A stretch of DNA of 64,000 nucleotides, taken from contig JAFUZJ010000015.1 of NCBI GenBank assembly GCA_017476665.1, positions 19,022 through 83,021 of the forward strand, in the 5' to 3' direction. The position numbers were made by a program, and so were the translations under genes. The notes below the pieces were generated by a model that was not told the DNA's origin, searched no databases, and was given only the letters and a program-made list of their open reading frames with translations. This document shows, piece after piece, positions 11,601 through 33,417 of this stretch (positions are counted from its first letter, which is position 1; each line of letters begins with the position of its first letter). Source of the stretch: Lachnospiraceae bacterium (GTDB lineage: Bacteria; Bacillota; Clostridia; Lachnospirales; Lachnospiraceae).

Positions 11601-14456
11601 TTAGTACGCCAGATAACTGATATCCATATCCACATTTCCGGTGATGCCGCTCACCCGGCCGGTCGCTTTGTACTGCCACATATCGTATCTTCCCGCATAG
11701 GTGGGCGAAGCCGCATATTGTGCCAGCCAGATCTTATAGCTGCCAAGCTGTCCGGGATCCAGTTTTTCCTCCAGCCAATTTTTGTTTGCATAGATACCTG
11801 CCGAGTAGCCACCGGATTGTACGGTTGCACAGAACGCTTTACATACCGCTGTCCGGGTGCTCTTGTCCAATCCGTCCGCACGTCCCTTATTGCCGGAAGC
11901 ACCGCTGTATTCCACATCCAGGAAGATCGGGTATGTGATCTTATATCCCTTTACCGCATCCAACACAAAGGATGCCTCCTGCACCGCTTCGACCTCGTCC
12001 ACAGCCTGGCTGAAGAAGTACACTCCCACTTTCAGCCCCGCCGAGGTAGCTCCCTTGATATTCTGTTCAAACTTAGAGTCGATGACCAGCGATCCCTGGG
12101 TATATCCCCTGTATCCGCAGCGGATGATCACATAGGAAACACCGGAATTCTTCACGGCATTCCAGTCGATCGATGCATTGTGCTTGGAAACGTCGATTCC
12201 CATGGTGCCGGAATCCGCCCGGAGTACGCCCTCGCTGCTGAAGGTATATTTTGCACCTTGGATCACCTGTTCTCCGGTCACTTTGTTTCCGTTTTTATCA
12301 AAGAAATAAACATTACCGTCTATCGTCTGCCATCCTGTGTACTTCGCTTCGCCCTTCTTGAAGAACTTGGTACCGTCCTTGTAATAATCCGCATAAACCG
12401 CAAGTCTGTAGGTATCATTCTCCAACACATAGAGCTGATTGCCATCTTTATCCTTCAAGGCTGTGCTGGTATCGGTCTTCGGGTGATTTTTCACCGTTAC
12501 CGCACAGGTAGCGGATGCGCCTGCCACCGTGACCTTGATCTCCGCACTGCCCTCTTTTACGCCTGTGACCTTGACTGTCTGACCGTCTACAGCCACCGTT
12601 GCCACACCGGTATCAGAGGAAACCGCGCTTAACGCTGCCGAGGAAACATTTCCGTTGACCTTAAGTGTTACCGGCTCTCCGATGAAGACCTTCTCCGAAG
12701 TCTTTTCCAGACTCAGCCCCGCCATAGCGGTCACCTTCACTGTGATCTTAACAGAAGGTGCTGTTGTCAGCGGATTTTCATTGTAATTTGCGGAAACCGT
12801 GATCTCTGCGTCGCCGACCGCTACGCCGTTCACAGTAACCTTGCCATTTTCATCCACCGTGGCGGTAGCAATTCCTGTATTGTTGCTGTCCGCTTTATAA
12901 ACCAGCTTCCTGCCGCTCTCAAAACCGCTTGCCGTAATTTGTGTGGTCTTGCTCTCCTGCACATACAGACTGACCGTTGCGGGATTCACGGCTAACGTTC
13001 CTGCCACAGGCGTCGCCTCCACCGTCACGTCGCACTCAGCCGCATATGTTTTGACAGCGTTTCCGCCGGATACATCAGTGGTTGTGGTAGTCACCGTGCA
13101 GGTAATCTTTGTACTCCCTGCCGCAACAGCAGTCACCGCACCGTTTCCGTCCACAGTCGCCACAGCGGGATTACTGCTCCCCCATGTGGTGGCCGTCACA
13201 TTGGTCAGCGAATGGTCTGCACTCAGCTGCAAGGTCTGTCCCGCCTTTAAGCTTGCCATGGTCTGGCTCAGCTTGATCTCATTATCCATACGCAGAAAAG
13301 TACCTGCTAACGCAACCGTCAACGGATCCACAATACTGCTTTTGCTGATCTCCACATAAGTGTTCACTACTTCAGTACTGGCTACCCACTCCACCGTATC
13401 TGTCAAAGTTGACTCCACAACCGGTGTTACCTTTTTCTGCTCCTCAGTAGCCACATTGATCTGTGACTCCGTCTTCACTTCATCGGAGACATCTATCTTT
13501 TTATAGACGATATCTTTCTTCACTTCCGCCGTGATCTCGCCCGCAGGTACGGTGTAGTCTGCATACTTCTCCCCGTTCAATTCATCCACTTTGATCTTGT
13601 AATCTCCCGGAGTGATGCCTTTTTTATAGATAATACCGTCCATATCATCATCGCTCCAGATTTCTGACTTCTTATCCGGTGTTGTGACCGTAACGGAAAA
13701 CGGAACGTTGGAGATCAGTTTTTTACTGCTGCTGTTGACAAACTTGATCTTGAGATCCTTTTGAATAGACACGGTATTCAGCGAAACCGTCACTTTCTTG
13801 CTGTAATTCACTTCCTGATATCCGTTTTTTCCTTTTTCCGCATCCTCCTGTTGCTGGCGCAGCTTAAGCGCCTCCTGACGTGCGATCGTCGCATCCGCCA
13901 CAGCTAACAGCCCCTGATCTCCCACAATATCGATCCCATCCAACTGATTTCCTACCGTCCCCAATGCAGCCACCTGTTTCCCAACCGCACGGGATTGCAA
14001 AAAGACTGCACCTGTTATGATCATGAGGATCACAACACATACGCCCGCTGCCAGGATTGCACCACCGCCCAAAAGGCTCTTTATGTCATCGTTTTCTTCA
14101 TCATTGGTGATCTCTTCTATGTCGTAGTACCGGTCTTCCGCTCCATCCACTTCATCGTCTTCATAATACGCTTCATCGGACTCGTAATATTCTTCTTCCG
14201 GCTCCTCGTCCTCTTCAGACTCGTAATATTCTTCTTCCGGTTCCTCGTCCTCTTCAGACTCGTAGTACTCTTCCTCCGGCTCCTCGTCCTCTTCAGACTC
14301 GTAGTACTCTTCCTCCGGCTCCTCGTCTCCGTCCAGTTCTTCGTACGCTTCCTCCGATGCCTCTTCGTCAGATTCGTAGTACTCCTCTTCCGGAATCTCA
14401 TCCTCAAAACTTTGTTCGTCCGCTATATCTCCGTTCCATTTAAAAAAATTCTTCAT
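11601..14456 (-). CDS. GH25 muramidase with acidic repeats, Ig-like domains and wall-binding repeats
   Basis: First gene of the rhamnose/export operon. The cytoplasmic N-terminus (1-126) is extremely acidic and tyrosine-rich, with four perfect or near-perfect 13-residue repeats (DEEPEEEYYESEE). A membrane segment follows at ~131-153, then a Cna-B-like domain homologous to that of the shorter muramidase, three Big_2-like Ig domains (~395-660), a glucan/choline-binding type repeat (YTGWQTIDGNVYFFDKNG, ~690-740) and a GH25 domain (~750-951). GH25 motifs are intact: GIDVSKHNASIDW and IFLDVEYSG. It should cleave the muramic acid-GlcNAc bond outside the membrane while exposing an acidic tail inside the cell. 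AGAGGA precedes the ATG, 30 bases from the predicted transcription start. Confidence 0.92.
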   Translation of the reverse strand: MKNFFKWNGDIADEQSFEDEIPEEEYYESDEEASEEAYEELDGDEEPEEEYYESEEDEEPEEEYYESEEDEEPEEEYYESEEDEEPEEEYYESDEAYYEDDEVDGAEDRYYDIEEITNDEENDDIKSLLGGGAILAAGVCVVILMIITGAVFLQSRAVGKQVAALGTVGNQLDGIDIVGDQGLLAVADATIARQEALKLRQQQEDAEKGKNGYQEVNYSKKVTVSLNTVSIQKDLKIKFVNSSSKKLISNVPFSVTVTTPDKKSEIWSDDDMDGIIYKKGITPGDYKIKVDELNGEKYADYTVPAGEITAEVKKDIVYKKIDVSDEVKTESQINVATEEQKKVTPVVESTLTDTVEWVASTEVVNTYVEISKSSIVDPLTVALAGTFLRMDNEIKLSQTMASLKAGQTLQLSADHSLTNVTATTWGSSNPAVATVDGNGAVTAVAAGSTKITCTVTTTTTDVSGGNAVKTYAAECDVTVEATPVAGTLAVNPATVSLYVQESKTTQITASGFESGRKLVYKADSNNTGIATATVDENGKVTVNGVAVGDAEITVSANYNENPLTTAPSVKITVKVTAMAGLSLEKTSEKVFIGEPVTLKVNGNVSSAALSAVSSDTGVATVAVDGQTVKVTGVKEGSAEIKVTVAGASATCAVTVKNHPKTDTSTALKDKDGNQLYVLENDTYRLAVYADYYKDGTKFFKKGEAKYTGWQTIDGNVYFFDKNGNKVTGEQVIQGAKYTFSSEGVLRADSGTMGIDVSKHNASIDWNAVKNSGVSYVIIRCGYRGYTQGSLVIDSKFEQNIKGATSAGLKVGVYFFSQAVDEVEAVQEASFVLDAVKGYKITYPIFLDVEYSGASGNKGRADGLDKSTRTAVCKAFCATVQSGGYSAGIYANKNWLEEKLDPGQLGSYKIWLAQYAASPTYAGRYDMWQYKATGRVSGITGNVDMDISYLAY
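14172..14327 (-). repeat. Four tandem 39-bp repeats in muramidase gene
   Basis: The units encode residues 44-95 (DEEPEEEYYESEE four times, last copy ending ESDE). They keep the reading frame, so gain or loss of units would change tail length without breaking the protein. Confidence 0.9.
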
Positions 14457-25647: not shown

Positions 25648-26511
25648 TCACAGGCTCCCATTCAATCCATTGATTATTTTTTCAGCGATGATCTGTCTGG
25701 ATGCTTCATTCGGATGCAACCCGTCTATTGTAAAACGTTCCCAGTCTTCCCACTCCTCATGCGTATATACATCATGATACAGATCGATGGCAGGAATCCC
25801 AAATTCTTTCGCGATCTCCAGTTCCTTCTGCACATACTCCTCCAAAAAGGCATATCCTGTATTGTACTCCTCGCAGGTTAACCCGTTAGAGAGATACCAA
25901 GTATAAGTTGGCGTCACCACGATCAGGTTTATGTCCGGATATGCTTTGTTTATCGTGTATAGCACACTCCGGAGTGCCCCGCCATATGTATTTTCATCAA
26001 ACAGATTTTCAGGGTTATCCACCGGAATTCCTGCATGGTAATCATTTAATCCGAATGCAATCACGATCGTCTTTACCCGATGAAAATCAATCTCCGGAAG
26101 ATCTTCTATGATATCAGCAAAGTAGTTCGTAATTTCCCGTCTGCTGCGCACCGTCTGCTGCACTCCGAAATCGTCAGCTGCCAGCGCCTTTGCTAAACTG
26201 ACCATGTTCAGAAGCGTCATCGTGTAGTTTACATCCAGATTTTCATCCTGTACTGCCAGGCTTGTGCCACCCATAGCCGCATTATACACCGAAAATCCGG
26301 ATATGGTTTCCAGAGCAGTCGTCACAGAAGTCTCATCTCTGCAGAGCCCGATCAGACTATCCCCAAAGACAACCACATCATATTCCTGATCTTTATGGTT
26401 GTTTAGCTGTAAGGAGACAAAAACTGCAAGAATCATTGCAAAAATCCCAGCAGCCGCCATCCAATAACGCATGTTATTTTTCTTATGTGCAAGTTTTTTA
26501 CTCTTTTTCAT
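25648..26511 (-). CDS. Membrane-anchored SGNH hydrolase
   Basis: A lysine-rich start and one membrane segment (~14-36) are followed by an extracellular SGNH domain with all blocks present: VVFGDSLIG (nucleophile Ser), NAAMGGTS, AFGLNDYHAG and IDGLHPNEAS (catalytic Asp and His). Likely an O-acyl esterase or acyltransferase partner for the glycan made in this operon; substrate unknown. It is the intact counterpart of the altered SGNH protein encoded at 14.7 kb. The start overlaps the end of pseG by four bases. Confidence 0.85.
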   Translation of the reverse strand: MKKSKKLAHKKNNMRYWMAAAGIFAMILAVFVSLQLNNHKDQEYDVVVFGDSLIGLCRDETSVTTALETISGFSVYNAAMGGTSLAVQDENLDVNYTMTLLNMVSLAKALAADDFGVQQTVRSRREITNYFADIIEDLPEIDFHRVKTIVIAFGLNDYHAGIPVDNPENLFDENTYGGALRSVLYTINKAYPDINLIVVTPTYTWYLSNGLTCEEYNTGYAFLEEYVQKELEIAKEFGIPAIDLYHDVYTHEEWEDWERFTIDGLHPNEASRQIIAEKIINGLNGSL

Positions 26512-27578
26512 AATCCTATCCGGCTTTTCACCAAAATATCCGCCAGCCTTCCGGCTCCCTGTCCGTCCGTCAGCCTGCGTTCACAGACGGAGTACTCCTC
26601 TCTCAGTTCCTTGCTTTTGCACAATTGTTTGAAGAGCATTGCTATCTTCTCCGTACAGGCATCCCTGTCTTTGTGCCATGCGCCTGCAAAACCTCCGCTC
26701 CCGGTTCTTCCGATAGATTCCGCCAGCGCTTCCTGATTTTCCGCATAGGAAAAACAGAGGAACGGAATGCCCACGGCTGCCAGCTCATACACCGTGCTGC
26801 CGCCCGCCGTGATCGCCAGATCGCACGCGCACATCAATTCCGCCATATTTTTCACATCATAATGGATCTGCAGATTCGGCGTCTGCTCCGCCCGTTCCGT
26901 CCACCCGGAAAAATGCGGGGAAAAACGCCCCACCAGAACATGGAAGAAAATGTCCGGCGCATACACCGCGCGCAGGATCTGCTCCGCAATATTATCCGCG
27001 TCCCCTCCACCGGTGGTGAGAAGCACCTGTTGCACTGCCGGCCGGATGCTGTACTCTGTATTTTGAAACTGCTCCCGCAGCGGCGCATACTGCGCTCCCA
27101 GGAAAAATTTCGTACTCTGCCCCCGATAAAGTCTCCGATAAAGATCCGGATCGGCAAACACGTTATAATTGATCACCCCGTCCACGGGATAAGGCTGGGC
27201 CTGCAGATCGTCCATGAGGAACACACTACCGTAGGCATGCAGCGCCTGCAGATACCGCTCAGTCACATAATAGCTGTCCACCAGGATAACATGTCCTGTC
27301 CCCGTAATCCATTTATCCCATGGGCAGATACCCGCACTGTCTCTGGACAGTTCCGATTCCATCTGTCGATAGTCGGTATCTAGAACTCCCGCCTGGAACC
27401 CATGGTCCCGTGCCATCCGCGCCGAATCCTCATCCGCGCACAGGAACAGCACCTGTGTTTCCCCGTTCGTTTTTTCTTTATCCGCATACCGTGCATGCAC
27501 CGCATGCGCGATCGTCAGGCACCGCATCAAATGTCCGGCGCCGATCCTTGCATTTCCGTCCGCCCGAATGATCAACAT
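26508..27578 (-). CDS. pseG: UDP-2,4-diacetamido-2,4,6-trideoxy-beta-L-altropyranose hydrolase
   Basis: Removes UDP from UDP-2,4-diacetamido-2,4,6-trideoxy-L-altrose, the step before pseudaminic acid synthase. The family signature is at the start: IIRADGNARIGAGHLMRCLTIA, with the catalytic histidine in GAGH. The C-terminal GT-B-like half has LLTTGGGDADN and the nucleotide-binding stretch LAITAGGSTVYELAAVGIP. Length 356 is normal. It lies between pseI and the SGNH gene in the large operon. GGAGAG precedes the start. Confidence 0.93.
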   Translation of the reverse strand: MLIIRADGNARIGAGHLMRCLTIAHAVHARYADKEKTNGETQVLFLCADEDSARMARDHGFQAGVLDTDYRQMESELSRDSAGICPWDKWITGTGHVILVDSYYVTERYLQALHAYGSVFLMDDLQAQPYPVDGVINYNVFADPDLYRRLYRGQSTKFFLGAQYAPLREQFQNTEYSIRPAVQQVLLTTGGGDADNIAEQILRAVYAPDIFFHVLVGRFSPHFSGWTERAEQTPNLQIHYDVKNMAELMCACDLAITAGGSTVYELAAVGIPFLCFSYAENQEALAESIGRTGSGGFAGAWHKDRDACTEKIAMLFKQLCKSKELREEYSVCERRLTDGQGAGRLADILVKSRIGL

Positions 27579-27601
27579 AATCTGCTCTCCAACACCGCTC
27601 T

Positions 27602-28669
27602 CTAATGCTGCCCGTCAAATTCTACCAGATCCCAACTCATCGGAGTGCCGAGTTTTGCATCCCTTGTGATCCGCTTCCCCAAAAGGTCCTCGTAATATTT
27701 CGTGTGCAGCCCGCAGCCGGGACGCACCGAGCGCAGATTCTCGGGCGTGAATACTTCCCCCGCCTTCATGTCCTGCGCCACAAACAGCGAACGGGAATGC
27801 TCCCTCTCTCTGGTCTGCTTCTCGGTCAGCTCATAGGTCACTTTTCCCAATGCCAGCTCAATCTTGCGGATATTGTCCACCATCAGCTTAAACTCTTCCG
27901 GCTCCATGGAAAACGCCGCATCCGCGCCGCCGTCCGCCCTGCGCAGAGTCAGATGTTTCTCCACCACCTTCGCCCCCAGTGCCACCGCTGCATCCGCCAC
28001 GGCATGTCCCATGCTGTGATCGGACAATCCGGTCAGGCAGTCAAAGGTCTGCGCCATGGACGGGATTGTTTTTAAATTAATATCCTCGTAGGGCGCCGGA
28101 TATGCGGAGGTACACTTGAGCAGGATCACATCCTCATTTCCCTCCTGCCTACAGGTATCCATCGCCAGCTCTATATCCGCCAGACGGGCAATCCCTGTGG
28201 CAAAGATCATGGGCTTCCCAAGCTTTGCGATCTTGCGGATCAGCGGAATGTCCGTGATCTCAAAGCTGGCGATCTTATACGCCGGCACCTTCATCTCCTC
28301 CAAAAAATCCACCGCCGTGAAATCAAAGGGCGAAGAGAAGAATTCCAGTCCCATCTCCCGGGCTTTCTCCTGCAATCTCGGCTGCCACTCCCAGGGAGTG
28401 TAAGCCGTCTGATACAGTTTGTGCAGCGTGGTCCCGTCCCACAGCGTCCCCTGGGTGATCTGAAAACAGGGATCGTCGCAGTCCAGCGTGATCGTATCCG
28501 CCGTGTAAGTCTGGATCTTCACAGCGTCCGCTCCCGCATCCTTTGCCGCCTGCATCACGGCCACCGCCCTGTCAAAATCCATCAAATGGTTGGCGGACAT
28601 CTCCGCTATGACAAATGTCGGAGAATCCTCGCTGATGATATGATCGCCAAATTGAATTACTTTGTTCAT
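27602..28669 (-). CDS. pseI: Pseudaminic acid synthase
   Basis: Condenses 2,4-diacetamido-2,4,6-trideoxy-L-altrose with phosphoenolpyruvate to pseudaminic acid. The NeuB-type barrel has SPTFVIAEMSANHLMDFD, DAVKIQTYTADTITLD, FFSSPFD, YKIASFEI, LLKCTSAYPAP, GLSDHSMG and VEKHLTLRRADGGAD; the last ~65 residues are a SAF (antifreeze-like) domain. ANHLMDFD and TADTITLDC are typical of PseI rather than sialate or legionaminate synthases. The start at 28669 has GAGGAG nine bases upstream; the frame stays open 17 codons further but without a ribosome site. Confidence 0.95.
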   Translation of the reverse strand: MNKVIQFGDHIISEDSPTFVIAEMSANHLMDFDRAVAVMQAAKDAGADAVKIQTYTADTITLDCDDPCFQITQGTLWDGTTLHKLYQTAYTPWEWQPRLQEKAREMGLEFFSSPFDFTAVDFLEEMKVPAYKIASFEITDIPLIRKIAKLGKPMIFATGIARLADIELAMDTCRQEGNEDVILLKCTSAYPAPYEDINLKTIPSMAQTFDCLTGLSDHSMGHAVADAAVALGAKVVEKHLTLRRADGGADAAFSMEPEEFKLMVDNIRKIELALGKVTYELTEKQTREREHSRSLFVAQDMKAGEVFTPENLRSVRPGCGLHTKYYEDLLGKRITRDAKLGTPMSWDLVEFDGQH

Positions 28670-28682
28670 TGCACTCTGCTCC

Positions 28683-29228
28683 TCACACAAATACAATCTT
28701 TTCGTACTTCTTCCCTTCACGGATCTCCCGCCAGTGCTCCGCCGTCATCCGCATAAATGTCACGTCATAATAAATACCGTCTTTTAAAATATGATCCTTT
28801 TTCTCCTCCACCACTTCACATCCGCAGATCTTGTGCAGCTGGATCACGCCCTTGTTCAGCGTGAACACATCGCTGATCACCGCCTCTTTTCCCAGTTCGA
28901 TCAGCGCATGGTCGTACATGCTCATCTCCAACGCCAATGCCGTCTGAATGCTGCGCAGCCTCTGTTCGCCCACATAGTAGGCCCAGCCCAGCACGCCGTC
29001 CGCTTTGGTGAGCCCCGTCAGGTTGATGACGCCCGCCGATTCCCCATTCACCCGGATCAGCCAATAGCGCACATCCTTATTTTCCCGGATGCCAGCCAGC
29101 CACTTTTTCTGTCCCTCCAGGGTCAGCTTAGGGTTCGTGTTCATATATCTGGTGATCTCCTCCGCCATGCGCCAGCGTATGATGTTTTCCAGATCCCCTT
29201 CCTCGATCGCGCGCAGTGTCACACTCAT
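28683..29228 (-). CDS. pseH: GNAT acetyltransferase, PseH-like
   Basis: 181-residue GNAT protein next to pseI. The N-terminus TLRAIEEGDLENIIRWRM and the EITRYMNTNPKLTLEGQKKW stretch, followed by GVINLTGL and GWAYYVGEQ (acetyl-CoA side), match the PseH type, which N-acetylates UDP-4-amino-4,6-dideoxy-N-acetyl-L-altrosamine. The start is translationally coupled to the ACP-fusion gene (ATGA). PseH is inferred from family pattern plus context; it could instead act on the WecE product. Confidence 0.8.
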   Translation of the reverse strand: MSVTLRAIEEGDLENIIRWRMAEEITRYMNTNPKLTLEGQKKWLAGIRENKDVRYWLIRVNGESAGVINLTGLTKADGVLGWAYYVGEQRLRSIQTALALEMSMYDHALIELGKEAVISDVFTLNKGVIQLHKICGCEVVEEKKDHILKDGIYYDVTFMRMTAEHWREIREGKKYEKIVFV

Positions 29229-30103
29229 AGGCAGCCTGCCTTCTGAAGCAGCTCCCGCATACCCGTCAGCTCGATTGCATCCTCCAGCGGAATCTTCACA
29301 CCCAAACGTTCCTCCAGTTCCCCGATGATCGTCACATGCATGAGGGAATCCCACTCTTCCACATCCTCGATCAAGGTATCCTCCGTGATCGTACCCGCAG
29401 GCACCGCAAGGATCTCCTCGATCAACGCTATGATCTTATCCTGCAATTCTTTGTTTCCTTCCATAGCTTTCTCCACACCTCTCAGTTTTATGATCACGCC
29501 GCCACGATCCGTCCGCCGGCAGACATACTTTTCTTCTGACGCATTCTTTTCATTCCATACATTCCAAGCAGCCTCAGGCAGGATTGCAAAGGGCTCCGCA
29601 CCGGGCTCTGCACCATCACAGATCTCTTCCAGCGAAGGCGACGGATCTGAAAGCTCCAATTCCGTCTGGATCAGACAGACGCAGGGAAACTGCCACATTT
29701 TTTCACCCAGCAGGACCAGCCGGTCAACCTTCTTGGCATCATATTCCGGTCCGCTTTTATGCCAGCAGATCAGCTCATCCTCCGGAAGAATCACATGAAA
29801 TTCAAAATAAGCATCCTCCCGCCGATTCAGCCAAAAACCGCGCACTTCCGAAAACCCGCCATATTCAAAAAGCATCTGCTTATACCCATTGAAATAAGGC
29901 TCCGACGGCTCCGGCACATAATCCGCTTCCAACTTTGCCTGGTTCCAGGCAATGATCTCCTCCGGGGTATCCATATCATAGCCCCAGTATCCGCCTGCAA
30001 ACCGAAATCCGTTTCCGATCAGAGCCGTATAAAAATCCTGCACCAGCTTCGGATATATGCATTTCTTTTCACATACAAATTTCATTGAAAAATAAGCCGG
30101 CAT
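29225..30103 (-). CDS. Fusion of an unknown ~210-residue domain to an acyl carrier protein
   Basis: First gene of the 13-gene operon. The N-terminal ~210 residues (cysteine-rich start FVCEKKCIYPKL, then FRFAGGYWGYDMDTPEEI) match no family I recognise. The last 79 residues are an acyl carrier protein: helix I KIIALIEEILAVPAGTI, then EEWDSLMHVTIIGELEERLGVKI, with Ser in the DSL motif for the phosphopantetheine arm. An internal ATG at 29464, with GGAG six bases upstream, would give a free ACP of normal length. AGGAGG nine bases before ATG 30103 supports the long form. The protein may hold or move an acyl or glyceryl group for the glycan; the FkbH-like protein encoded at 41.1 kb is the kind of enzyme that loads such carriers. 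Confidence 0.8.
   Translation of the reverse strand: MPAYFSMKFVCEKKCIYPKLVQDFYTALIGNGFRFAGGYWGYDMDTPEEIIAWNQAKLEADYVPEPSEPYFNGYKQMLFEYGGFSEVRGFWLNRREDAYFEFHVILPEDELICWHKSGPEYDAKKVDRLVLLGEKMWQFPCVCLIQTELELSDPSPSLEEICDGAEPGAEPFAILPEAAWNVWNEKNASEEKYVCRRTDRGGVIIKLRGVEKAMEGNKELQDKIIALIEEILAVPAGTITEDTLIEDVEEWDSLMHVTIIGELEERLGVKIPLEDAIELTGMRELLQKAGCL
29471..29474 (-). promoter_or_regulatory. Internal ribosome binding site for a stand-alone ACP
   Basis: GGAG six bases before an in-frame ATG (29464) at the exact domain boundary of the fusion gene. Use of this site would yield a 79-residue ACP. Confidence 0.45.
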
Positions 30104-30229: not shown

Positions 30230-31576
30230 TTAAACAAGATGTCCCTTTTGTTTTATGACATCTATCACCTGGTCCACATATTTCTCGCAGATCTCATCCG
30301 ACCCCGCTTCCACCATCACGCGGATCACAGGCTCCGTACCGGACTCACGCACCAGGATACGTCCTTCATTTCCGAGTGCCGCTGCAACATCCGCAACCGC
30401 TTTCTGCACATCCGGATCATTCTGTGCCTCCGGTTTGCTCTTTACACGGACATTCTTTAAAACCTGCGGGTAGAACACCACCGGTGCCGCCAGCTCGCTC
30501 ATGGGCTTGCCTTTCGCCAGCATAACCTCCATGAGTTTCAGGGAAGTCACAATGCCGTCACCCGTCGTCTCGTATTTGCTGAAAATAATGTGACCGGACT
30601 GCTCGCCGCCGATACGGTTCCCCGTCTGCACCATATTCTCATACACATACTTGTCGCCCACCTTGGTCTTCTCATACTCGATGCCCACCTTGTCAAGGGC
30701 CTTGTAGAGACCAAAGTTGCTCATGACCGTAGTCACAACCTTGTTGTTCAGAAGCTTGCCTCTCTCTTTCATGTAGAGACCGTAGATGTACAGGATATGA
30801 TCACCGGTGATCACATTGCCCTTCTCATCCACTGCAAGACAGCGGTCCGCATCGCCGTCATAGGCAAAACCGATATCCAGCCCCTTCTCCACCACGAACT
30901 TCTGCAGATGCTCAATATGAGTGGAACCGCAGTCCGTATTGATATTCAGACCGTCGGGTGCATCATTCATCACATAAGTCTTGGCGCCCAGGGCATCAAA
31001 CACACCCTTTGCGATCTGCCATGCCGCGCCGTTCGCCACATCCAGACCCACCTTCACATCCTTGAAGCTGTACTTTGACAGGGAGATCAGGAAACCGATG
31101 TAACGGTTTCTTCCGGCCACATAATCCACCGTTCTGCCGATGGTCTCTCTCTCACTCACCGGAATCTCAATCTTTCCGTCGATATAATCCTCCACCTTGA
31201 GGATCGTCTCCTCATCCATCTTCTCACCGTTTCCGTTCAACAGCTTGATACCATTGTCGTAAAACGGATTGTGGGAAGCGGAAATCATAATACCGCAGTC
31301 AAAATCATCCACTCTCGTGATATACGCCACGGAAGGAGTCGTTGTCACATGCATGATATATGCATCTGCGCCGCTTGCCATCAGGCCGGTGCAAAGCGCA
31401 TACTCAAACATATAAGAAGATCTTCTGGTATCCTTGCCGATAACGATCTTTGCTTTTTTCCCCTGATTGGCACCATAGTACCAACCCAGGAAACGTCCGA
31501 TCCGGATCGCATGCTCAAAAGTCAATGTCTTGTTTGCTTCTCCGCGGAAGCCGTCTGTTCCAAAATATTTTCCCAT
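30230..31576 (-). CDS. glmM: Phosphoglucosamine mutase
   Basis: Converts glucosamine-6-phosphate to glucosamine-1-phosphate for UDP-GlcNAc. Motifs in order: MGKYFGTDGFRGEAN, active-site phosphoserine loop GIMISASHNPFYDNGIKLL, metal loop AYDGDADRCLAVDE, GEQSGHIIF and the phosphate-binding RESGTEPVIRVMVE. Length 448 is normal. Its ATG overlaps the stop of the preceding gene by one base (TGATG). It is the last gene of the nagB operon and is followed by a strong terminator. Confidence 0.96.
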   Translation of the reverse strand: MGKYFGTDGFRGEANKTLTFEHAIRIGRFLGWYYGANQGKKAKIVIGKDTRRSSYMFEYALCTGLMASGADAYIMHVTTTPSVAYITRVDDFDCGIMISASHNPFYDNGIKLLNGNGEKMDEETILKVEDYIDGKIEIPVSERETIGRTVDYVAGRNRYIGFLISLSKYSFKDVKVGLDVANGAAWQIAKGVFDALGAKTYVMNDAPDGLNINTDCGSTHIEHLQKFVVEKGLDIGFAYDGDADRCLAVDEKGNVITGDHILYIYGLYMKERGKLLNNKVVTTVMSNFGLYKALDKVGIEYEKTKVGDKYVYENMVQTGNRIGGEQSGHIIFSKYETTGDGIVTSLKLMEVMLAKGKPMSELAAPVVFYPQVLKNVRVKSKPEAQNDPDVQKAVADVAAALGNEGRILVRESGTEPVIRVMVEAGSDEICEKYVDQVIDVIKQKGHLV

Positions 31577-32238
31577 CAGTCTGCCCTCTTTTCTGCGATC
31601 ACACCATTATTTTTAAAGATGCTGTTGGCGGGTACCGTTCCGCGCACGCAGGATGTGGGATACACATTGCTGTGACGGCCGATGACGGTTCCCGGATTGC
31701 AGACGGAATTGCAGCCTACCTCCACATAATCTCCCAGCATCGCGCCGAATTTCTTCAGTCCCGTCAGGATCTGCTCCGTTCCGTTATGAACCACTACCAA
31801 TGTCTTATCAGACTTCACATTGCTGGTGATGCTGCCGGCGCCCATATGGCTGTAATAACCCAAAATCGAGTCGCCCACGTAATTGTAATGGGGTGTCTGC
31901 ACATGATCGAACAGGATCACGTTTTTCAGTTCTACGCTGTTGCCTACCACACAGTCTGCTCCCACCAGAGCCGAACCTCTGATGAACGCACAGTGACGCA
32001 CCTCCGTGTTGGGGCCGATGATGCAGGGTGCCCCCAGATATGCGGAAGGGAACACCTTCGCAGTCTTGTGAACCCATACGCCGGGCTCCCGCTCCTCATA
32101 ATCCTCTCCCAGAGTCGGTCCCAACGCCAGAATCATATCCTTGATGCCTTTCAACGCCTCCCAGGGATAGGTAAACTGTGAAAGATACTCAGCTGCCAGC
32201 GTATGCTCCAGATCATATAACTCTTTTATCGTATACAT
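31576..32238 (-). CDS. Left-handed beta-helix acyltransferase, GlmU C-terminal-like
   Basis: 220 residues. After ~50 N-terminal residues come hexapeptide repeats (VWVHKTAKVFPSAYLGAPCIIGPNTEV...), then the loop HYNYVGDSILGYYSHMGAGSITSNVKSD, closely like the C-terminal half of GlmU and similar sugar-phosphate uridylyl/acetyltransferases. The N-terminal nucleotidyltransferase domain of GlmU is absent. Between nagB and glmM it would logically acetylate glucosamine-1-phosphate to GlcNAc-1-phosphate, leaving uridylylation to another enzyme. Databases often label this type as a UDP-GlcNAc pyrophosphorylase, which the missing domain does not support. One-base overlaps with both neighbours. Confidence 0.8.
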   Translation of the reverse strand: MYTIKELYDLEHTLAAEYLSQFTYPWEALKGIKDMILALGPTLGEDYEEREPGVWVHKTAKVFPSAYLGAPCIIGPNTEVRHCAFIRGSALVGADCVVGNSVELKNVILFDHVQTPHYNYVGDSILGYYSHMGAGSITSNVKSDKTLVVVHNGTEQILTGLKKFGAMLGDYVEVGCNSVCNPGTVIGRHSNVYPTSCVRGTVPANSIFKNNGVIAEKRAD

Positions 32239-33029
32239 TACAGCCTCTCTTTCTTCTCAATATCGAGAAAATACTTATAGGTATCCACTGTCAGCTCGCC
32301 GCAGGCTGCCTCATCGCACGCGATGATCGCGCCATTGTGCATCTGTAATGCGGAACATGTCCATTTCTGGCTTACGCCGCCCTCCACTGTTGCTGCGAGT
32401 GCACGCGCTTTGTTATGCCCGTTGATGAGGATCAATACCTCCTTGGAATCCGTCACGGTTCCCACACCCACAGACAATGCCTGTGCAGGTACTTTCTCCG
32501 GATCATTTCCGAAGAAACGGGAATTTACAATACGGGTATCTGTGGTCAGATCACGTACGCCCGTGCGGGATGCCAGACTTGTAAAGGGCTCATTAAACGC
32601 AATATGGCCGTCCACGCCGATACCGCCCATGAACAGATCGATTCCGCCATAGGAAGCGATCTTCGCCTCATATCTTGCGCACTCCCCTTCCGGATCGTCC
32701 GTCATACCGTTCAAAATGTTGATATTCTCCGGCTTCATATCCACCAGATGATCAAAGAAATTGTCATGCATAAAGTACCAGTAACTCTGGTCATGCTCTC
32801 TGGGAAGTCCAAGGTACTCATCCATGTTAAAAGTAACCACATTGGCAAAAGACACCTTTCCCGCCTTGTTTTGTCTCACCAGCTCCTGATAGACGCCAAT
32901 AGGACTGGAACCGGTAGGCAGCCCAAGTACAAAAGGACGATCCTCCTTGTGCGCCTGGATCTTTGCTGCAATATAATCCGCCGCCCATTTACACATTTTC
33001 TCATAGTTGTCCTGTATTACAACCCTCAT
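32238..33029 (-). CDS. nagB: Glucosamine-6-phosphate deaminase/isomerase
   Basis: Interconverts glucosamine-6-phosphate with fructose-6-phosphate plus ammonia. Family motifs: VLGLPTGSSPIGVY, FNMDEYLGLP (catalytic Asp), GIGVDGHIAFNEP (catalytic His and Glu) and GHNKARA. 263 residues, close to E. coli NagB (266). AAGGAG lies nine bases upstream of ATG 33029. The gene opens an operon with a GlmU-C-like protein and glmM, both biosynthetic, and is preceded by a glmS-type ribozyme. That suggests it works in the forming direction here, as a GlmS substitute, rather than in amino sugar breakdown (inference). Confidence 0.95.
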   Translation of the reverse strand: MRVVIQDNYEKMCKWAADYIAAKIQAHKEDRPFVLGLPTGSSPIGVYQELVRQNKAGKVSFANVVTFNMDEYLGLPREHDQSYWYFMHDNFFDHLVDMKPENINILNGMTDDPEGECARYEAKIASYGGIDLFMGGIGVDGHIAFNEPFTSLASRTGVRDLTTDTRIVNSRFFGNDPEKVPAQALSVGVGTVTDSKEVLILINGHNKARALAATVEGGVSQKWTCSALQMHNGAIIACDEAACGELTVDTYKYFLDIEKKERL

Positions 33030-33139
33030 ATTGTCGTTCTCCTTATTGTTTTCAGCATATTTTATTGATTTTTTGCGAAAAATATTCGCTGCCGCACCGG
33101 GAAAACCTCTGTTACAGTTTTTATTCTGCTTTTTCCTCT

Positions 33140-33251
33140 TTCCCTTACGATCTGCGGTCAAATGTGGTCGCTCACATTTTGTGACCGTGACAGCATCCGC
33201 CGAGTCTTTCGATCGCTGTCATTCCTCGTCACCCTCTCAGGGCCTGGCGCT
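33140..33251 (-). ncRNA. glmS-type self-cleaving ribozyme/riboswitch (candidate)
   Basis: Read on the minus strand in the nagB leader. After the cleavage site (A at 33251 / G at 33250) comes AGCGCCAGGCCC, a short P2 hairpin (CCCT-GAG-AGGG), then TGACGAGG, P3 strands GACAGC and GCTGTC enclosing ATCGA and TCGGCGGAT, and a P4 hairpin closed by CGGTC/GACCG, followed by CGTAAGG. These are the conserved core blocks of the glmS ribozyme, which cleaves its own mRNA when bound to glucosamine-6-phosphate. P2 is unusually short. The boundaries at the 3' side are approximate. Confidence 0.85.
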
Positions 33252-33316
33252 AATAACGATCCCTGTATCCTCCTTCCATGGCACGATCATCATTTTAACT
33301 ATAACATATCTATGAT

Positions 33317-33344
33317 AGTATATCATAAATAAAGGGAAATGCAA
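33317..33344 (-). promoter_or_regulatory. Promoter of nagB-glmM operon
   Basis: TTGCAT, 16 bases, TATACT on the minus strand. The predicted start leaves ~60 bases before the ribozyme cleavage site and a ~280-base leader before nagB. Confidence 0.7.
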
Positions 33345-33417
33345 ACCGTTTTGTGCATGACAGTGCAAAGCGCTATGCCGGTACGGCAGACAAATTGGCT
33401 CATTGCCCGCGGAAATC

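Follow-up and report, generated by a model that had tools for sequence, protein, structure and literature searches.

A 64,000-nt stretch of DNA from a Lachnospiraceae bacterium (the window; contig JAFUZJ010000015.1 of assembly GCA_017476665.1) carries an RNA that matches the glmS ribozyme family in the leader of a nagB-like gene. The established role of glmS ribozymes is feedback control of glmS. Here, the genes behind the RNA encode a NagB-like protein, an acetyltransferase (gene acT), and the phosphoglucosamine mutase GlmM, a set referred to below as the module. The genome of the window (G000) is 97% complete; G and L numbers are labels of the genomes and loci compared. Coordinates are positions in the window, and the ribozyme and module lie on the minus strand:

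33317–33345, minus strand: promoter-like match, TTTGCA-17-TATACT with TG (weak)
33090–33262, minus strand: glmS-type self-cleaving ribozyme in the nagB leader, full-length RF00234 match (covariance model)
33250–33251, minus strand: predicted cleavage site, A(−1) at 33251 and G1 at 33250, TTA/GCGCC (family analogy)
33224–33231, minus strand: core block TGACGAGG (sequence, alignment)
33195–33213, minus strand: core block ATCGA...TCGGCGGAT, within the helix called P3 in the original prediction (sequence, alignment)
33108–33134, minus strand: subclass signature AAAAA-GCAG-AATAAAAA-CTGT-AACAGA (sequence, alignment)
32238–33029, minus strand: nagB-like gene, 263 aa, ATG at 33029, catalytic residues kept and activator-site residues changed (TIGR00502)
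31576–32238, minus strand: acT, stand-alone left-handed-beta-helix acetyltransferase, predicted glucosamine-1-phosphate (GlcN-1-P) N-acetyltransferase (GlmU-C-type matches)
30230–31576, minus strand: glmM, the genome's only TIGR01455 match (1e-60)

A glmS-type ribozyme in front of nagB

A glmS ribozyme ahead of nagB had been proposed from the sequence alone, and the covariance model confirms it. When the window was scanned with all 4227 Rfam models (cmscan), RF00234 (glmS) was the sole match above gathering cutoff, at 33262–33090 on the minus strand with 53.5 bits (cutoff 37, E 1.4e-9), covering model positions 1–167 without truncation. A whole-genome RF00234 search scored the same site at 57 bits and returned it as the only match in the genome at E 0.001. 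The distance from the ribozyme to the nagB ATG is 60 bases. The conserved blocks named in the original prediction are present, with AGCGCC, TGACGAGG, and TCGA..TCGGCGG all intact. The predicted cleavage position follows the A−1/G1 site described for the Bacillus subtilis glmS ribozyme (excerpt of PMC11602151). A promoter had also been claimed; a second promoter-like match lies upstream of the ribozyme at 33326–33298, and the signal as a whole is weak, with 4 matches in 501 bases on both strands versus 1.3 ± 1.1 in shuffled sequences.

Profile matches likewise agree with the gene set that had been read behind the ribozyme. NagB matches TIGR00502 with 377 bits (cutoff 237) and is 58–65% identical to E. 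coli and Bacteroides-type NagB, while GlmM matches TIGR01455 with 545 bits (cutoff 448). Matches of the acT protein to GlmU-type models are confined to their C-terminal part (best 135 bits versus a cutoff of 292), and the nearest solved relatives of the protein are GlmU C-domains and ST0452 of Sulfolobus (5z09, 2ggo). It shares with them the left-handed beta helix and a conserved PH.-YVGDS stretch, but differs from GlmU in standing alone, lacking a nucleotidyltransferase domain, and falling below every GlmU cutoff. The end base of each module gene is the start base of the next, and a single polycistronic mRNA would encode NagB, the acetyltransferase, and GlmM.

Loci compared

Genome contigs were scanned with five NagBs, and the best 80 of 581 stretches encoding a relative were combined with the window and ten other loci to give 91 loci. 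Their NagBs are 88–100% identical to that of the window; the set includes L079, on the same contig as L041, and L065, whose NagB is identical to the window's. A ribozyme was found by pattern at 56 loci, and an RF00234 scan at gathering score of the other 35 added 3. As a class-wide yardstick, 391 genomes were drawn evenly from the class, and the flanks of their RF00234 matches were fetched and classified; "before glmS" denotes that, of the four query genes (glmS, nagB, acT, and glmM), glmS lies closest on the same strand.

A structural subclass with a divergent P4.1

The original prediction suspected a variant class on account of a short hairpin named P2, which is P1 in the usual helix nomenclature. 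The RNA is indeed a structural variant, but the variant feature is P4.1. The short 5′ hairpin was rejected in this role because an ordinary glmS-linked copy (G079) has one too.

We aligned 44 of the 56 pattern-found copies, omitting L065, L079, nine copies with long inserts, and L110, which the end pattern missed. Nearly all core positions are invariant. The copies share the hallmark AAAAA-RC(A/G)G-AAUNAANA-C(U/C)GY-AACARA, in which P4.1 is a 4-bp stem with an 8-nt AAUNAANA loop where a GNRA cap is usual; one A-U pair of the stem becomes G-C in 18 of the 44 copies. The window ribozyme thus lacks a GNRA-capped P4.1, a cap not needed for an Rfam match. By analogy, the hallmark flanks may be the P4 internal loop, IL4, which docks on the core in B. 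subtilis (excerpt of PMC11602151). RNAalifold gave 31 pairs, 16 of them changed on both sides, with standard pairs in 96.8% of pair cells. Double changes occupied 157 cells, compared with 50.4 ± 5.9 after shuffling (none of 500 shuffles as high) and 10–36 with the partner column slid. Both comparisons carry a caution: drawing the structure from the same sequences works in favor of the unslid count, and the shuffle test is inflated by relatedness among the copies.

Among copies with a core-pattern match (61 of 90 module pieces and 132 of 148 non-module pieces), the AAUNAANA-loop form occurs in 59 of 61 module copies versus 1 of 132 others. The non-module copies carry a GNRA cap by pattern in 116 cases and neither form in 15. 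The module ribozymes are therefore a covariation-supported structural subclass. The single exception, in G858, places the AAUNAANA-loop form before glmS itself; one regulatory slot can thus be filled by either glmS or the module. G858 belongs to the same genus as G841, where a subclass ribozyme heads acT-glmM.

With the glmS ribozymes of RF00234, the window RNA shares the whole-length family match, the conserved core, and the P4 internal loop; it differs in heading nagB, acT, and glmM instead of glmS, and in its 4-bp P4.1 with the AAUNAANA loop. Ordinary glmS ribozymes precede glmS in B. subtilis and Clostridioides difficile (excerpts of PMC11602151 and PMC11477304). No description of a glmS ribozyme before nagB was found in the open-access literature searched; an earlier mention elsewhere is possible. 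From its sequence, the leader RNA is probably a glucosamine-6-phosphate (GlcN6P)-activated glmS ribozyme of a distinct subclass.

Occurrence and spread of the module

A ribozyme precedes the first module gene at 59 of the 91 loci, with nagB first at 48, acT first at 11, and glmM never; from ribozyme core to gene start, the 56 pattern-found copies span 160–490 bases. All three genes stand together at 61 loci, and every possible order was seen: nagB-acT-glmM (39 loci, 35 with a ribozyme), acT-nagB-glmM (11, 10 with), nagB-glmM-acT (7), glmM-acT-nagB (2), glmM-nagB-acT (1), and acT-glmM-nagB (1, with a ribozyme). Incomplete loci comprise nine with nagB and glmM (ribozyme at two of eight in the order nagB-glmM), one with nagB and acT that ends at a contig end and has a ribozyme, and 20 with nagB alone, ten of them with a ribozyme.

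The class sample yielded 150 RF00234 matches in 148 of the 391 genomes. Most (142) lie before glmS; in three of these glmS is 0.66–1.66 kb away, and L166 and L172, which begin at a contig end, were counted on the glmS-coding sequence read there. Three precede the module (G000, G746, and G841 with acT-glmM), three precede other genes (G531, G585, and G665), one is decayed (G112), and one, a tandem copy in G648, was not separately classified. The link between ribozyme and module is rare among glmS ribozymes and frequent among these NagBs.

Several single loci deserve mention. L216 (G648:C39 2273–4098) has two tandem RF00234 matches about 1.6 kb apart with glmS downstream. L237, L266, and L285 have RF00234 matches with none of glmS, nagB, acT, or glmM downstream on the fetched piece; L266 keeps the core blocks. 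The decayed copy (L064 5321–7937, G112) scores 30 bits, has no AGCGCC block, and stands before a shortened nagB, which is followed by a 581-aa open reading frame that looks transposase-like. At L077 (4821–6738), the ribozyme and nagB are followed by a YvcK/GlmR-type gene (TIGR01826, 268 bits), with neither acT nor glmM adjoining. YvcK/GlmR is a checkpoint directing carbon to peptidoglycan in B. subtilis (excerpt of PMC6171935). Other RNAs were seen at ribozyme-less loci: a raiA RNA (RF03072) about 2–6 kb upstream of the module on the same strand (L105, L118, L125, L126, L136, and L142), a DUF3800-XI RNA just before nagB (L083 6763–6809), and signal recognition particle RNA in that position at L106 (3804–3903) and L115 (6827–6926).

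Within the genus, RF00234 is matched in 4 of 61 genomes under strict filters (G000, G011, G018, and G055), with G045 found separately, and within the order 9 of 392 genomes match the NagB profile at 1e-70. Mean identity over 45 pairs of ten genomes is 91% for nagB versus 64% for glmS; over 36 pairs of nine genomes it is 90% for glmM and 88% for acT. In the NagB tree, the five same-genus genomes are scattered over three positions among other families: G000 and G011/G018/G045, each in a well-supported group, and G055, whose placement lacks such support. Ribozyme presence changes at least seven times on well-supported branches of this tree, which indicates repeated gain or loss. Horizontal transfer is the likely mode of spread, though strong conservation alone may account for the similarity of the module. 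Phage or plasmid carriage of the window's NagB was rejected, as no close relative appeared in the two collections searched (best identity 63% among phages and 65% among plasmids). Of the 80 titles of fetched loci, 26 name a ruminant host or rumen compartment, and 38 further titles bear RUG or RUI labels, presumably rumen catalogues. The rumen is an ammonia-rich place.

NagB, its partners, and GlmS

The catalytic residues Asp72, Asp141, His143, and Glu148, in E. coli numbering, are kept in 90, 90, 89, and 90 of 90 NagBs. This count excludes L064, whose nagB is cut short, and leaves the comparison rows L035 and L037 unused. The allosteric site, which binds N-acetylglucosamine-6-phosphate (GlcNAc6P), has fared differently. 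Of the E. coli activator residues Tyr121, Asp141, Glu148, Ser151, Arg158, Lys160, and Tyr254 (excerpt of PMC4281351), Ser151 is replaced by Thr, Arg158 by Gly, and Lys160 by Arg in all 90 module NagBs. Asp141 and Glu148 are kept, as are Tyr121 and Tyr254 in the five rows examined. Against solved NagBs, the window's NagB reads SRTGVRD for SRTRIKT.

The companions of nagB were searched with fixed thresholds (glmS 1e-60; GlmM, TIGR01455, 1e-60; NagA, TIGR00221, 1e-30; GlmU, TIGR01173, 1e-40). Sixteen of 18 module genomes encode no GlmM besides that of the module; the exceptions are G133, with a second copy, and G464, whose GlmM lies elsewhere. The RNA therefore governs a central-pathway enzyme in most such genomes. 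NagA had no match in G000 or in 12 of the 18 module genomes. Three relatives without the module (G006, G016, and G021) have a lower-scoring nagB (274–306 bits versus 377) beside nagA; the catabolic nagB of relatives is of a different lineage from the module nagB. The module nagB thus resembles nagAB catabolic genes in protein family, and differs from them in its lineage, in the missing NagA match in G000, and in its biosynthetic partners.

GlmU had no match in G000 or in any of nine congeners without the module. Among the 18 module genomes it is over cutoff in two and matched in part in two. Loss of GlmU was consequently rejected as a marker of the module, given that all nine module-free congeners are without a TIGR01173 match as well. 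A PF01704 protein is present in G000, in all nine congeners, and in 9 of the 18 module genomes (G000 included), and the G000 protein is closest to AGX-type uridine diphosphate-N-acetylglucosamine (UDP-GlcNAc) pyrophosphorylases (AGX2, E 9e-68). Its locus (L308 3232–4161, G000:C7) makes for a mosaic UDP-GlcNAc pathway, GlmU being unmatched in all 14 members of the genus that were searched. Since GlmU is unmatched and an AGX-like protein is present, acT plausibly fills in for the missing GlmU half.

The original prediction also envisaged a GlmS-free route, which the genome search does not bear out. G000 encodes a full glmS (798 bits; C53:3425–5245, minus strand, beginning MCGIVGYIG) on the contig that carries the ribozyme, about 47 kb away. 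Among the findings named as refuting the original prediction was a normal glmS controlled by a ribozyme of its own, together with a NagB active only in deamination; of this, only the existence of a glmS applies, and the whole-genome RF00234 search has no match at it. More broadly, a single RF00234 match occurs in 41 of 60 module genomes (40 over cutoff), and 34 of the 41 also carry glmS. Ribozyme and glmS share a contig in only four of these 34 (G045, G055, G462, and G467), and in none does the ribozyme directly precede glmS. In G055, G413, and G422, glmS directly follows glmM. Ten of the 60 genomes have no glmS match (G447, G450, G453, G463, G465, G469, G470, G476, G481, and G484). glmS may truly be absent from some of them, but we put no weight on these 1.4–5.2 Mb assemblies, whose completeness the search does not give.

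A proposed ammonia-fed branch

From sequence, we infer that the module is cotranscribed, that its leader cleaves in response to GlcN6P, that NagB aminates, and that acT accepts GlcN-1-P. NagB would convert fructose-6-phosphate and ammonium to GlcN6P, which GlmM would isomerize to GlcN-1-P. Acetylation by acT would yield N-acetylglucosamine-1-phosphate, pulling the reversible NagB step forward, and the AGX-like uridylyltransferase encoded elsewhere in the genome would complete UDP-GlcNAc. Plentiful GlcN6P would enter the ribozyme, the mRNA would be cut, and NagB, GlmM, and the acetyltransferase would fall. The branch would run beside the glutamine-dependent GlmS, ribozyme-free in G000, so that the full route would comprise NagB or GlmS, then GlmM, acT, and the AGX-like enzyme. 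Cutting at high GlcN6P is sensible before an enzyme that makes this metabolite and perverse before one that removes it. The energetics also speak for the branch: with an equilibrium constant of 0.2 M (excerpt of PMC11593775), 10–20 mM ammonium and 2 mM fructose-6-phosphate (assumed levels) would by simple arithmetic balance 0.1–0.2 mM GlcN6P.

We regard this ribozyme-controlled, ammonia-fed branch into UDP-GlcNAc synthesis, with NagB in the aminating direction beside GlmS, as the best explanation and a probable one. That NagB runs in reverse, as originally predicted, is a hypothesis supported by the sole GlmM, the missing NagA, the activator-site changes in 90 of 90 sequences, and the G858 ribozyme. 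Judged on its sequence and setting, the module NagB most likely makes GlcN6P. The wider proposal, a glutamine-independent ammonia-to-UDP-GlcNAc route with an activator-less NagB lineage that is tied to a ribozyme, mobile in ruminant gut bacteria, and interchangeable with glmS, seems to us slightly favored over its denial.

Several observations weigh against a branch of this kind. At 20 of the 91 loci, nagB has neither partner adjoining (three of these loci end about 1 kb from nagB), and 32 loci have no ribozyme, with fewer than 300 bases upstream at L107, L111, and L112. None of the seven nagB-glmM-acT loci and none of the four glmM-first loci has one. The NagB equilibrium also favors deamination. 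Reported ammonium Km values are 31.4 mM for E. coli NagB and 3.7 mM for the bovine enzyme (excerpt of PMC11593775), and 41 mM for the NagB of Akkermansia (excerpt of PMC5902328). The same excerpt concludes that the Akkermansia enzyme, from a cell without GlmS, could not support synthesis at physiological levels. It is a deaminase that nonetheless shows no GlcNAc6P activation, so loss of GlcNAc6P control alone proves no direction.

A further difficulty comes from G841, where the ribozyme heads acT-glmM and no nagB lies on the 14 kb read (the scope of the reading in that genome). The target of the RNA may therefore be the pathway rather than the NagB step. This leads to an alternative in which the ribozyme controls the committed GlmM and acetyltransferase, with NagB a near-equilibrium buffer among fructose-6-phosphate, ammonium, and GlcN6P that runs in either direction by supply. 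The 11 of 59 ribozyme loci with acT first fit such an arrangement. However, at 12 loci the ribozyme stands before nagB with acT not adjoining: ten have nagB alone (two of these, L095 and L110, stop within about 1 kb), and L103 and L116 have only glmM besides. The presence of nagB alone thus seems to suffice for the ribozyme to be kept. The 142 of 150 class-sample ribozymes with glmS nearest, moreover, indicate that the family mostly guards the GlcN6P-forming step. We consider the buffer role unlikely.

The module NagB might instead be an ordinary deaminase draining surplus GlcN6P, whether GlmS-made or salvaged, to fructose-6-phosphate, while the ribozyme sets the level of the operon. NagB is usually catabolic (excerpt of PMC4281351), and the position of the equilibrium agrees. 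Two further points on this side also count against an ammonia branch. NagA is present in 6 of the 18 module genomes, and glmS (1e-60) is found in 50 of the 60 module genomes, 49 over cutoff; with GlmS mostly present, as in G000, an ammonia route is not forced, and the notion of a GlmS-free genome was rejected. Yet a ribozyme that cuts at high GlcN6P would stop the drain just when it is needed. G000 has no NagA match, the catabolic nagB beside nagA in relatives is of the other lineage, and the GlcNAc6P activator site, which serves catabolism, is changed in every one of the 90 NagBs. A draining role is accordingly quite unlikely in our estimation.

Finally, it is very improbable that the RNA is a decayed or retuned relic no longer cleaving with GlcN6P, or that the enzymes use a different amino sugar phosphate, for instance that of galactosamine: module copies do score 36–71 bits, below many other copies at 80–123, but the lower scores fit a different P4.1, the core of the 44 aligned copies is nearly invariant with strong covariation, and the truly decayed G112 copy provides the contrast.

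The proposed ammonia-fed branch has partial precedents. The Giardia NagB-family enzyme makes GlcN6P from ammonia and is unaffected by GlcNAc6P (excerpt of PMC4281351). Hexosamine synthesis from ammonia is thus shown in Giardia and proposed here, and the activator residues are partly lost in both; Giardia differs in being a eukaryote that builds a cyst-wall polymer of N-acetylgalactosamine (same excerpt). The window's NagB, in contrast, is bacterial, lies beside glmM and an acetyltransferase, and is under a ribozyme. An engineered pathway (Deng, 2006, by its title) reportedly couples NagB with a GlcN6P acetyltransferase. The deaminase would be coupled to acetylation in both cases, but that pathway is man-made, whereas the module is a set of genes found in nature together with a feedback RNA.

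Neighboring genes

Behind the module, 26508–29354 holds genes similar to those for PseH, PseI, and PseG of the pseudaminic acid pathway, which suggests synthesis of pseudaminic acid or a relative from UDP-GlcNAc. A legionaminic acid/GDP-GlcNAc setting, as in Campylobacter, was dropped given these PseI, PseG, and PseH-like neighbors. Also in the window are a 292-aa protein with a C-terminal acyl-carrier domain (29225–30103) and a 951-aa protein that carries, close to the N-terminus, an acidic EEYYESEEDEEP-type repeat (11601–14456).

Conclusions

These findings suggest that an enzyme of sugar breakdown has been redirected to cell-wall sugar synthesis from ammonia. For structural studies of the ribozyme, the subclass provides a P4.1 that diverged in nature, and compounds that trigger the module ribozyme would lower GlmM too. 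If the subclass does serve the nagB module as proposed, the ribozyme would mark GlcN6P-forming enzymes generally, and the old question of whether a bacterial NagB ever runs forwards in nature is now directly testable with few genes. Amino-sugar synthesis would then have an ammonia branch, much as nitrogen assimilation has glutamate dehydrogenase beside glutamine synthetase.

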